In this document: piece after piece, positions 47,166 through 50,525 of the stretch
Layout of the letters: each line of letters begins with the position of its first letter
Position numbering within the stretch: the stretch's first letter is position 1
Assembly: GCF_011765625.1 (NCBI RefSeq)
Contig: NZ_CP050313.1
Span: forward strand, 616,501 to 680,500
Source of the DNA: Shewanella aestuarii
GTDB taxonomy: Bacteria > Pseudomonadota > Gammaproteobacteria > Enterobacterales > Shewanellaceae
Length of the DNA: 64,000 nt
Direction: 5' to 3'
Notes under the pieces: model-generated
What the model saw: the letters and a program-made list of their open reading frames with translations, nothing else
Told to the model about the DNA's origin: nothing
Database searches by the model: none
Program-made: the position numbers and the translations under genes

Positions 47166-48227
47166 TTATTCTTCAGCCGCTCTAAAGTGTCGAGCATGTC
47201 GCTGTTCATCAAGGCTGGCGATAATGCGTTGGTAATTGCTGAATCTGTCTTGGGTTATCTTGCCATCCTTTAGTGCCTGTTGTATTGCACAGCCAGGATC
47301 ATCGCCATGTTTACAATCTCTAAACTTACAGGTTCCAAGGAACTCTCTAAACTCAATAAAGCACCAGCCTACGCGTTGAGCTGGTAGATGCCATAAGGCA
47401 AATTCTCGTACACCAGGAGAATCTATAAGATCTCCACCGCTGGCAAAATGTAAAAGCTTGGCAGTGGTCGTGGTGTGTTGCCCTAAACCTGAGTTATCGG
47501 AAACATCTCCCACAATTAATTCTGCTTCAGGCATTAATGCATTAATTAATGATGATTTACCCACACCGGATTGTCCGGCGAAAATACTTACTTTATTGTT
47601 TAAAAGCGAGATTAATTCGTTAATCCCTTCACCCGTGTGACTACTGACTTGATAAACTTGATAACCAATAGCTTGATAACGTGCTAAAGCTTGTTCTATT
47701 TCTGGGCGATTTTCATCATTAAGTAAATCAACTTTGTTCAGTACAATGACCGGAGCAATATCGGTATCTTCACATGCCACTAAATAGCGGTCGATAATTT
47801 GTGTGGTAAAGCTTGGCAACACCGATGATACAATCAAAATTTGATCGATGTTGGCAGCAATAATCTTTACACCGTCATAGAGATCGGGGCGGGTTAAAGA
47901 TGATTTGCGCGGGTGAACCGCTTCAACGATACCGCCAATATTTGAGCTTGCTTGTACTTCAGTTGCTAAACGTACAATAACCTTATCGCCAGTAACGAGA
48001 CTAGTGATATTACGGCGAATATTACAGCGTGTGATGCTGCCGTCTTGGGTTTCGATATCAGCATGTTGACCAAAACGAGAAATCACCACACCAGCTTGTT
48101 CAGGCGTTAGTAAGTGATCTTGAATATCTGGGCTATCTTTATCTGTGTCGGCGCGCTTTAATCGTTTAGTTTGATTGGCTCGCATGCGACGCAATTGCCC
48201 TTGGCTTAGGGGTTTCTTTTTACTCAC
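47166..48227 (-). CDS. rsgA: Ribosome small-subunit-dependent GTPase A RsgA
   Basis: Circularly permuted GTPase that helps mature the 30S subunit, 353 residues. An OB fold is N-terminal ([33 protein letters not shown]). G motifs appear in permuted order: G4 VLNKVDLL, then G1 [10 protein letters not shown] and G3 DSPGVRE. The zinc-binding C-terminus has [14 protein letters not shown]. The frame is open to 48326, but GTG 48227 begins [18 protein letters not shown], as in E. coli (MSKNKLSKGQQRR). Orn is encoded divergently 114 bases away, the conserved rsgA/orn arrangement. Confidence 0.94.
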
Positions 48228-48340
48228 AGGATAATCTTCATAAATAAAGGTGTTTTTGTGTGTCTCAAAAACACAGTATGATACACCCTCTTGGATAAAA
48301 AAGCCTGAATTTAGGGCAATAGACAAAATAAGGCAAAAAA

Positions 48341-48886
48341 ATGGCTGCTGATGCGAATAACCTAATTTGGGTTGATTTAGAAATGACAGGTCTTGAGCCT
48401 GAAGTTGATCGTATTATTGAGATTGCAACTTTAGTAACGGATCAAGAATTAAATATCATTGCACAAGGGCCTGTATTGGCTATTCATCAAAGCGATGAAG
48501 TATTGGCTGGCATGGATGATTGGAATCAAAAACATCATGGCGAGTCAGGTTTAATTGATCGCGTCAAAGCAAGCCAATACAGCGAACAAGATGCAATTGA
48601 GCTGACAATAAAGTTTTTAGCTGATTATGTGCCAAAAGGTAAATCACCTATGTGTGGCAACAGTATTGGTCAGGATCGTCGTTTTTTGAATAAATATATG
48701 CTTGAGTTGGAAGATTATTTCCATTATCGAAATATTGATGTTAGTACAATTAAAGAGCTAGTGCGACGCTGGAGTCCTGAAACGATGAATGGTTTTTCAA
48801 AGAAGAATACTCATCAAGCATTAGAAGACATCAAAGAATCAATAGCAGAATTACAGTATTATCGTAGCCAAGTATTTAAAATTTAA
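48341..48886 (+). CDS. orn: Oligoribonuclease
   Basis: 3'-5' exonuclease that degrades RNA dinucleotides and pGpG, 181 residues like E. coli Orn. The DEDDh motifs are [10 protein letters not shown] (D, E), [11 protein letters not shown] (D) and [12 protein letters not shown] (H, D). ATG 48341 follows AAGGCAAAAAA. It is divergent from rsgA and followed by a tRNA-Gly array, which matches the position of glyVXY after orn in E. coli. Confidence 0.96.
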
Positions 48887-48915
48887 TCAATCGAATCAAA
48901 TTTTGAAAAAAGAGG

Positions 48916-48943
48916 TTGCAGCCCTGCCAATTTTACCTATAAT
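48916..48943 (+). promoter_or_regulatory. Strong promoter of the tRNA-Gly array with GC-rich discriminator
   Basis: TTGCAG (48916-48921), a 16-base spacer, TATAAT (48938-48943), then GCGGCCTC. A GC-rich discriminator directly after a consensus -10 is typical of stringently controlled stable-RNA promoters. Confidence 0.75.
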
Positions 48944-48952
48944 GCGGCCTCA

Positions 48953-48990
48953 ACTTTCTACAGAGCACCAAACTCTGATTGCTAGAAAGT
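48953..48990 (+). other. Leader stem-loop of the tRNA-Gly transcript
   Basis: Outer stem ACTTTCTA/TAGAAAGT (8 bp) and inner stem CAGAG/CTCTG with loop CACCAAA. It lies between the promoter and the first tRNA-like sequence and may be a processing signal in the primary transcript. Confidence 0.55.
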
Positions 48991-49004
48991 GAAATATTTT
49001 AGAT

Positions 49005-49072
49005 GTGACATTAGCTCAGTTGGAAGGTAGAAAGACGATACCTTGCTAAATGTGAAAATGAAGCACAAAAAA
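49005..49072 (+). pseudogene. 5'-half tRNA-Gly remnant 1
   Basis: Starts GTGACATTAGCTCAGTTGG and keeps the D-arm and the anticodon-stem start GATACCTTGC. It then diverges to TAAATGTGAAAATGAAGC, with no T-arm and no 3' end. It has an insertion (AAGGTAGAAAGAC) in place of GTAGAGC. It directly abuts the intact tRNA at 49073. Confidence 0.7.
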
Positions 49073-49148
49073 GCGACATTAGCTCAGTTGGTAGAGCGAT
49101 ACCTTGCCAAGGTATAGGTCATCGGTTCGAACCCGATATGTCGCTCCA
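49073..49148 (+). tRNA. tRNA-Gly (anticodon GCC), copy 1
   Basis: Complete 76-base cloverleaf with an encoded CCA. The acceptor is GCGACAT/ATGTCGC, the D-arm AGCTC/GAGC, the anticodon stem ATACC/GGTAT with loop TTGCCAA (anticodon GCC), and the T-arm ATCGG/CCGAT with loop TTCGAAC. Confidence 0.97.
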
Positions 49149-49164
49149 AAATTTTGATATGTAT

Positions 49165-49232
49165 GCGACATTAGCTCAGTTGGAAGGTAGAAAGACGATG
49201 CCTTGCTAAATGTGAAAATGAAGCACAAAAAA
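49165..49232 (+). pseudogene. 5'-half tRNA-Gly remnant 2
   Basis: Same 68-base layout as remnant 1, beginning GCGACATTAGCTCAGTTGG with the D-arm and GATGCCTTGC, then the same divergent tail. It ends where tRNA copy 2 starts. Differences from remnant 1 are single bases. Confidence 0.7.
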
Positions 49233-49308
49233 GCGACATTAGCTCAGTTGGTAGAGCGATACCTTGCCAAGGTATAGGTCATCGGTTCGAACCCGATATG
49301 TCGCTCCA
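49233..49308 (+). tRNA. tRNA-Gly (anticodon GCC), copy 2
   Basis: Identical over all 76 bases to copy 1, including the encoded CCA. Confidence 0.97.
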
Positions 49309-49332
49309 AAATTTCATAATTTGATCTATTAT

Positions 49333-49400
49333 GCGACATTAGCTCAGTTGAAAGGTAGAAATACGATACCTTGTTAAATGTGAAAATGAAGCACAAAAAA
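49333..49400 (+). pseudogene. 5'-half tRNA-Gly remnant 3
   Basis: Third 68-base remnant, beginning GCGACATTAGCTCAGTTG, with GATACCTTGT and the TAAATGTGAAAATGAAGC tail. It abuts tRNA copy 3. It carries more substitutions than remnants 1 and 2. Confidence 0.68.
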
Positions 49401-49476
49401 GCGACATTAGCTCAGTTGGTAGAGCGATACCTTGCCAAGGTATAGGTCATCGGTTCGAACCCGATATGTCGCTCCA
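49401..49476 (+). tRNA. tRNA-Gly (anticodon GCC), copy 3
   Basis: Identical over all 76 bases to copies 1 and 2, including the CCA. The spacer that follows differs from the first two and begins the 142-base repeat. Confidence 0.97.
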
Positions 49477-49747
49477 ATCAATAAATATTCCCAATTCTAA
49501 ATAAGACATTAGCTCATTGAGTTTATTGCAGAGCGCGTTACCTATCTTTTTTCAAGCGAGTTTGTTTAGCAAAAGTGGTCATCGGTTCGACCACTCTTAA
49601 CAAGAGATTGTCGCTCCAATCAATAAATATTCCCAATTCTAAATAAGAGATTAGCTCATTGAGTTTATTGCAGAGCGCGTTACCTATCTTTTTTCAAGCG
49701 AGTTTGTTTAGCACAAGAGGGTATCGGTTCGAACCCGATATGTTGCT
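49471..49747 (+). repeat. 142-bp degenerate tRNA-derived tandem repeat (two copies)
   Basis: The unit starts GCTCCAATCAATAAATATTC, then CCAATTCTAAATAAG, then a tRNA-like GA(C/G)ATTAGCTCATTGAG with a D-arm-like AGCTC/GAGC pair. It continues GCGTTACCTATCTTTTTTC and AAGCGAGTTTGTTTAGCA. Copy 1 begins at 49471 and copy 2 at 49613. Each ends in T-arm-like sequence: TCATCGGTTCGACCAC in copy 1, and an intact TATCGGTTCGAACCCGATA in copy 2. Acceptor ends are TGTCGCTCCA (copy 1) and TGTTGCT with no CCA (copy 2). Neither folds into a normal cloverleaf. Confidence 0.65.
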
Positions 49748-50019
49748 GAAAATCACCTTAGTGACCATGAGCTATATTCTCAATATGCTCTCTATTACCT
49801 ATCGTTAATCTATGATTTTGGGCGTTTTTTGAACGCCTGTTCTATCTCAAGCCTTTGAATAGGTGATCTGTGACTCATTTCTTCACCTTTTCCTAAAGTA
49901 CATCTTTGAAATAAACTCAAAACATGACGCTGTTCAAATATTTGTGGCGCTGAATTTCTGATAATGGATTTAACAAAATTCTCCTGAGGTCATCAGGATG
50001 TGTAATGGGGTAATGAAAT
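49748..50019. other. Gap between the tRNA-like array and the next gene
   Basis: Holds a weak hairpin, GGCGTT/AACGCC at 49821-49837, followed by TGTTCT; this could end the tRNA transcript. No open reading frame or other motif is recognisable. A promoter for the 50020 gene is not evident. Confidence 0.4.
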
Positions 50020-50475
50020 ATGCGAATTCAACAATTAAGCGAACTTCTTGAATATGTAGCAAAATGCCGTTTAGATATGGCAAGTTTGTATAAGCGTTTA
50101 CATCGAAATGCAGACTCTTCTCGAGTTAAGTTAATGTTGAAGTATTTGCAGCAGCATGAAAAGCATGTTCACGATACCATCGAAAGCTACATAGAGGATG
50201 CACCGGCTAAAATACTGGACACTTGGTTCCAAGATGTGGTTTTTGAAGATTTTACTAAACGCTGTACTGATACGACTTTACCCGCAAATATGGACGAAGA
50301 TTTAGTACTCGAATTACATTTAGATTTAGAAAACCGTTTGATTGGTTTACTCGAGAATACAGCTGATAGTAGTCCTAATGGCGATATCAAAAGCGCATTG
50401 CTAGATTTAGTGCGTGTAGCTCAAACTCAACAAAAGCGTTTGGTACACAGTGTATTAAGAATGGATGATATTTAA
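50020..50475 (+). CDS. Hypothetical all-helical cytoplasmic protein
   Basis: I do not recognise this 151-residue protein. It looks wholly alpha-helical with no signal peptide, membrane segment or cysteine cluster (one Cys near residue 16, one near 87). It carries paired E/H residues in HEKHVHDTIESYIEDAP and later HLDLENRLIGLLE, with a basic tail QKRLVHSVLRMDD. The pattern of four long helices with Glu/His pairs is reminiscent of ferritin-like or DUF2383-type bundles, but I cannot confirm metal ligands. It occupies the place between the tRNA-Gly genes and tsaE where E. coli has queG and nnr. It has its own terminator and so is probably monocistronic. Confidence 0.7.
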   Translation: MRIQQLSELLEYVAKCRLDMASLYKRLHRNADSSRVKLMLKYLQQHEKHVHDTIESYIEDAPAKILDTWFQDVVFEDFTKRCTDTTLPANMDEDLVLELHLDLENRLIGLLENTADSSPNGDIKSALLDLVRVAQTQQKRLVHSVLRMDDI

Positions 50476-50498
50476 TTTATCAAATTAAACTCATTATC

Positions 50499-50525
50499 AA
50501 GCCAGCTAATTAGCTGGCTTTTTTT
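50499..50525 (+). terminator. Intrinsic terminator after the hypothetical gene
   Basis: Perfect 22-base palindrome with core AAGCCAGCTAA/TTAGCTGGCTT, followed by five more T, 23 bases after the stop. Confidence 0.9.

Follow-up and report, generated by a model that had tools for sequence, protein, structure and literature searches.

Repeats that derive from tRNAs and lie within tRNA operons are already known. In E. coli, the tyrT operon carries the rtT repeats (RF00391), which derive from a tRNA, are transcribed with the tRNAs, retain the tRNA's 3' end and are located downstream. In Photobacterium phosphoreum, a cluster of tRNA-Pro and tRNA-His genes, the subject of 1988 work by Giroux, Beaudet and Cedergren, reportedly carries partial tRNA copies between intact genes. 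The leuZ gene sits in the gly-cys-leu operon, and the spacer RNA 3'ETS-leuZ, unlike the elements analyzed here, is not known to derive from a tRNA. According to PMC5222698, 3'ETS-leuZ of E. coli and Salmonella is a piece of a polycistronic tRNA transcript that RNase E excises and that serves as an sRNA sponge (Lalaouna 2015, cited in PMC5222698). A tRNA-like gene that stands outside translation is tRNA-Other of Bacillus cereus, a pseudo-tRNA described as flanking an island (PMC3399842).

The arrays of tRNA-Gly(GCC) genes in Shewanella compare with these systems in different ways. Like the rtT repeats, their elements are tRNA-derived repeats transcribed with tRNAs, but the Gly elements retain the 5' end and are located upstream. 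The resemblance to the Photobacterium phosphoreum cluster is closer in layout, as partial tRNA copies are repeated in a tRNA operon in both, and tandem partial copies within a tRNA operon are what characterizes that type. Like 3'ETS-leuZ, the Gly elements belong to the spacers of a polycistronic tRNA transcript, gly-cys-leu being one of the two operons in which they occur. The island-flanking location described for tRNA-Other differs from a repeated hairpin placed before tRNAs. We found no description of the Gly element family in the literature, as covered by the titles and abstract beginnings of open-licence papers.

The orn–tsaE array of Shewanella aestuarii

The window is a stretch of 64,000 nucleotides of the Shewanella aestuarii genome, and the array lies among genes that we take, from their translations and by eye, to be orn (48341-48886), tsaE, amiB and mutL. 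The features of the array are as follows.

48916..48943, plus strand: probable promoter, TTGCAG-N16-TATAAT followed by GCGGCCTC; called from sequence, a block that recurs before most of the orn-type arrays listed
48950..48992, plus strand: transcript leader hairpin; fold of 48950-49004, -12.2 kcal/mol, z -2.82
49005..49072, plus strand: mimic hairpin element 1, a copy of tRNA 1-18 with one change (C2T), a remodelled D-loop stem and a complementary tail; fold -14.6, z -2.76, covariance model 63.7 bits
49073..49148, plus strand: tRNA-Gly(GCC) 1; ARAGORN, Rfam
49165..49232, plus strand: mimic hairpin element 2; fold -16.2, z -2.62, covariance model 62.8 bits
49233..49308, plus strand: tRNA-Gly(GCC) 2; ARAGORN, Rfam
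49333..49400, plus strand: mimic hairpin element 3; fold -13.9, z -2.92, covariance model 62.7 bits
49401..49476, plus strand: tRNA-Gly(GCC) 3; ARAGORN, Rfam
49505..49618, plus strand: 3' pseudo-tRNA-Gly copy 1 (class B), retaining the acceptor strands in an enlarged body; found as a repeat, fold z -0.73, no better than shuffles
49647..49749, plus strand: 3' pseudo-tRNA-Gly copy 2 (class B); found as a repeat, fold z 0.09
49819..49839, plus strand: terminator-like stem-loop past the array; terminator scan

The interval between orn and tsaE thus consists of three tRNA-Gly(GCC) genes, identical in sequence and each scoring 71.5 bits as Rfam tRNA, with a 68-nt element directly 5' of each. The alternation of three identical genes with three such elements, as the earlier note had it, is confirmed by coordinates, Rfam and repeat search. 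So is tandem amplification with a period of 160-168, since a 152-nt unit of element plus tRNA-Gly repeats at spacings of 160 and 168. A 27-nt pattern (the tail and the first 2 tRNA bases, with up to 3 mismatches allowed) has three matches in the window, all of them exact, and none in 100 shuffles.

The block TTGCAG-N16-TATAATGCGGCCTC upstream of the array recurs before most orn-type arrays among those listed, which supports the view that the elements lie inside the tRNA transcription unit. The promoter call rests on this cross-species recurrence because a sigma-70 consensus scan here returned 0 promoter sites (shuffles mean 4.0); from its GC-rich discriminator, the promoter is presumably of the stringent type. 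A terminator scan of 48850-50020 gave sites only at 49819-49839 (plus) and 49998-49982 (minus), and no intrinsic terminator (GC-rich stem and T run) at the elements.

Up to several class B pseudo-tRNA-Gly copies follow the last tRNA-Gly; they keep both acceptor strands, with swollen D, anticodon and T regions. Such copies are also found 3' of the array in L013, L015, L018, L019, L026 and L028. In locus L013, one tRNA-Gly of an otherwise GCC array, at 1786-1861, has the anticodon ACC (G34A).

Distribution, anatomy and descent of the Gly elements

The Gly elements are a structured, recombining family that extends across Shewanella. A search with a 71-nt element as query matched 46 of 129 genus genomes at E up to 1e-6. 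The comparison with other Shewanella genomes proposed in the earlier note found elements in 90 of the 129, using a covariance model built from 32 elements with a supplied structure, at E up to 0.01 and with filters that lose weak matches; in this search the filters were stricter, positions come from the matches listed, and matches away from tRNA-Gly are uncounted. When 394 genomes sampled from the order were searched, the model matched 24, of which 22 belong to the same genus. The other two (G164 and G483) are weak matches (E 0.005 and 0.008); the stretches fetched for them hold no tRNA, and we judge both to be chance. An exact-pattern scan of named genomes, which come from several culture collections, gave 25 loci, every one in Shewanella. 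The elements examined sit directly 5' of a tRNA-Gly(GCC) or of another element, often two to four in tandem, and their copy number varies. Two kinds of operon hold them: one is the orn array, the other the gly-cys-leu (or gly-leu) operon. In the window's own genome, the gly-cys-leu and gly-leu operons (L008 and L007) are without elements.

Most elements fold into one long imperfect hairpin. Its 5' strand is a copy of tRNA-Gly positions 1-18, which we call the mimic. A stem around AGGT/ACCT takes the place of the D-loop and of the D-stem 3' strand, and the 3' strand of this new stem is the 5' strand of the anticodon stem. The earlier note had described the D-arm as kept; this does not hold, because its 3' strand is lost and, in the window elements, the D-loop has turned into a new stem, AAGGTA/TACCTT. 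Nor is the tail an arbitrary divergence, as it pairs with the tRNA-like 5' strand (GC..CATT with AATG..GC and, in many copies, CAGTTG with the TGATTG part). The tail end directly abuts the real tRNA. Within a 65-row alignment, AAGC in the tail is nearly invariant and faces GC at the element 5' end; beyond mimic and core, much of the element sequence is variable.

Descent from tRNA-Gly is well founded: the mimic is identical to tRNA 1-18 in 88 of 124 element rows, and element and tRNA share tRNA-specific changes. These rows were drawn from a chosen list of loci in 48 genomes, with one locus counted twice (L030 and L054) and a few aberrant 5' ends included (e.g. G064, G031, G106). By construction they are elements no longer than 95 nt with a tRNA or a further element after them. 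The tail of some elements (L014, L032 and L034) starts as TTGCCAA of the tRNA anticodon loop and pairs with the D-loop TTGG, so that the element resembles an internally shortened tRNA; we infer that the family arose from such a copy of tRNA-Gly. Tests with a tRNA finder and covariance models, of the kind that the earlier note proposed, separate elements from genes: in the window and also in L009, ARAGORN and Rfam RF00005 call the intact genes alone and none of the elements. The rtT covariance model RF00391 has no match in window positions 48000-50500 at E up to 1, and no match at gathering score in L087, L098, L009 or L132.

Homogenization, head–tail pairing and proposed masking

Homogenization within the array, as suggested in the earlier note, is evident from the tails. 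Within one array, mean tail identity is 0.890 (98 pairs). It falls to 0.617 when the same operon is compared between genomes, to 0.586 between the two operons of one genome (23 pairs) and to 0.548 between different operons of different genomes, in a tabulation that omits 8 rows with no operon label and pairs of different loci sharing operon and genome. Two genomes have a tRNA that is altered in the 5' strand of its anticodon stem. In genome G017 the tRNA carries A27G/T43C, and all 4 elements carry GGTACC; in G057 the tRNA carries T28A/A42T, and all 5 elements carry GAAACC. The elements therefore follow the changes of their own tRNA, which points to recombination between the two and fits gene conversion or crossing-over through their common 5' sequence.

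Heads and tails of the elements co-evolve. When the tail is shuffled and the head held fixed, z is below 0 in 63 of 65 distinct elements (mean -1.8), and the mean is negative in 29 of 30 loci. Among 34 representatives that are less than 85% identical, native head and tail average -16.45 kcal/mol, against -14.40 with permuted tails. None of 20,000 tail permutations does as well, by a statistic that ignores the relatedness of the representatives, and in 24 of the 34 the native tail outperforms the average swapped one. Distant copies show joint variation of linker and tail, such as TTGATAAAGG with CCTTTATCAA in L084. Between genomes, tail identity is 0.608 versus 0.513 for the adjoining spacer (shuffled baselines 0.485 and 0.454), and the tail is the more conserved in 491 of 630 pairs among 36 genomes. 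RNAalifold on a MAFFT alignment gave 4 pairs and did not find the long hairpin, so the supplied structure was used instead; on this structure, two-sided base-pair changes occur in only 1 of 20 pairs of the model alignment. The suggestion in the earlier note that the tRNAs alone are under selection is not supported, since head–tail co-evolution and retention across the genus argue that the hairpin itself is kept. We also considered the elements as open, decaying tRNA 5' halves, a reading rejected on hairpin folding and head–tail co-evolution.

The reading that we favor, with about an even chance of being right, is that recombination re-imposes the tRNA sequence on the element while the tail is selected to mask the mimic from the flanking tRNAs. 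The element would be a tRNA-Gly copy, shortened internally, that folds into a single hairpin. Recombination via common 5' sequences would alter the number of elements and keep restoring the mimic, which, when free, is predicted to pair with the 3' strand of the adjoining tRNA. Selection on the tail would hold the mimic paired inside the element, and the hairpin would so shield the tRNAs on either side from a trap rebuilt again and again by gene conversion. The conversion argument is needed because loss of the mimic would be simpler if masking were the sole pressure.

Equilibrium folding of one tRNA together with an element bears on this reading. Two tandem tRNA-Gly with the element between them give a domain-swapped equilibrium fold, which suggests that kinetics matter; each tRNA was therefore folded with the element alone. 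For the tRNA downstream of 29 representatives, the probability of the acceptor stem is 0.500 with the native element, 0.162 with shuffled tails, 0.328 with the tails of other elements, 0.487 with the head shuffled and 0.535 with the whole element shuffled. The native value exceeds the tail-shuffled one in 25 of 29 (Wilcoxon p 3.3e-7) and, in the set of 65 elements, in 55 (0.564 versus 0.132). The upstream tRNA, with 28 cases, gives 0.646 for the native element against 0.267 with shuffled tails (native higher in 24) and 0.233 without the tail (22). Against swapped tails the native element is ahead in no more than 16 of 29 cases (p 0.03), and it does not differ from the whole-element shuffle (native higher in 13 of 29). 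The probability is still below 0.2 in 11 of the 29 native Gly elements, one of them a G033 row in which the tRNA is wrong or cut (0.017 for the tRNA alone) and which is kept in the counts. On average, then, the native element is about as harmless as shuffled sequence despite its strong trap, which suggests, within this folding model, that the tail has been selected to mask the tRNA-like strand restored by recombination.

That this genus-wide element, maintained by recombination and with a fast-changing, co-evolving tail, is a dedicated cis-acting insulator or processing hairpin before tRNA-Gly is a tentative proposal, to which we give less than an even chance. If this is true, tRNA operons would hold a new class of RNA element, one that directly affects tRNA yield. 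The usual view of tRNA arrays is of tRNAs and inert spacers; here the spacers are tRNA-derived, structured and co-evolving, and they escape the tRNA finders applied (ARAGORN and Rfam). The family is also a natural experiment that shows how tandem tRNAs of identical sequence might keep from misfolding against their own copies.

The co-evolution of heads and tails would also be expected of a hairpin with a positive role in the precursor, which might set an RNase P or RNase E cut site, guard the spacer, or yield a stable sRNA (a sponge or tRNA-fragment-like RNA). That much of the genus retains the elements, directly 5' of tRNA-Gly and in two operons, is in line with such a role, for which 3'ETS-leuZ of E. 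coli and Salmonella is a precedent (PMC5222698). We nevertheless consider it rather unlikely, given the 39 of 129 genus genomes without a model match (under filters that lose weak matches), the variable copy number, the gly-cys-leu (L008) and gly-leu (L007) operons of this genome that do without elements, and the variable sequence over much of the element outside mimic and core. Less probable again is a neutral by-product, in which a deleted tRNA copy was spread by unequal crossing-over via the common 5' sequence and its complementarity is a relic (D-loop against anticodon loop, and acceptor strands). Strong homogenization within arrays and the TTGCCAA tail start that still pairs with D-loop TTGG in L014, L032 and L034 would follow from such an origin, and GU-tolerant changes could preserve pairing for some time, but heads are on average matched better by their native tails than by permuted tails, linker and tail vary jointly in distant copies (L084), and the tail is conserved above the spacer. 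An assembly artefact, raised in the earlier note, has next to no probability, with model matches in 90 of 129 genomes, all 25 exact-pattern loci in named Shewanella assemblies from several culture collections, and a window contig of 4.03 Mb.

Elements derived from other tRNAs

We scanned for further 5' remnants in fetched regions, L001, L007 and L008 among them, that contain 80 tRNA genes, the genome having 93 Rfam tRNA matches. Besides Gly, remnants before tRNA-Lys (7) and tRNA-Pro (3) were found, together with one distant remnant of tRNA-Glu (4 mismatches). A Thr-like 5' match with 3 mismatches is present in L101. The Lys elements lie in L087 147-1305 (G000 C1 1605046-1606204), where six tRNA-Lys genes accompany seven elements of 80-82 nt that retain the tRNA-Lys 5' half, some with the acceptor strand GGGGCG instead of GGGTCG. 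The Pro elements lie on the minus strand of L098 (389-833), are 99 nt long and carry the tRNA-Pro 5' part with a GAGGGT..ACCCTC hairpin.

All 7 Lys and all 3 Pro elements have negative z against shuffled tails. In the masking test on the downstream tRNA, shuffled tails do at least as well as the native element in 4 of 5 Lys cases and in both Pro cases; on the upstream tRNA this holds in 2 of 4 Lys cases and in the single Pro case. Where Lys elements do protect their neighbors, they have a changed acceptor strand. As Lys and Pro mostly fail this test, the case for masking is largely confined to Gly.

The Lys element occurs in 8 of 247 genomes of the order, all Shewanella. The Pro element occurs in 6 of 247, including two from other families, and in 4 of 4 genomes of one such family. 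Pro-related elements are seen in genomes of other families, with six copies in L132. Those of this genome (L098), together with the Pro elements in four genomes of another family, look like the Photobacterium kind, and they differ from the Gly elements in the tRNA concerned, in a multi-hairpin fold rather than one hairpin, and in giving no masking in the fold test. Because the Pro case resembles the 1988 Photobacterium cluster, 5' tRNA repeats as such are, by this analogy, probably not new.

At L008 1830-2240, 3' of the gly-cys-leu operon, three tRNA-Leu(TAA) 3'-end repeats, like rtT repeats, are separated by terminator-like stems (AAGCCTC..GGGGCTTTTTT). The 3' end of tRNA-Met forms three tandem repeats at L095 700-1060, 3' of a three-gene tRNA-Met array, and a tRNA-Glu pseudogene with insertions lies at L096 644-735, within a tRNA-Glu array whose spacers are highly repeated.
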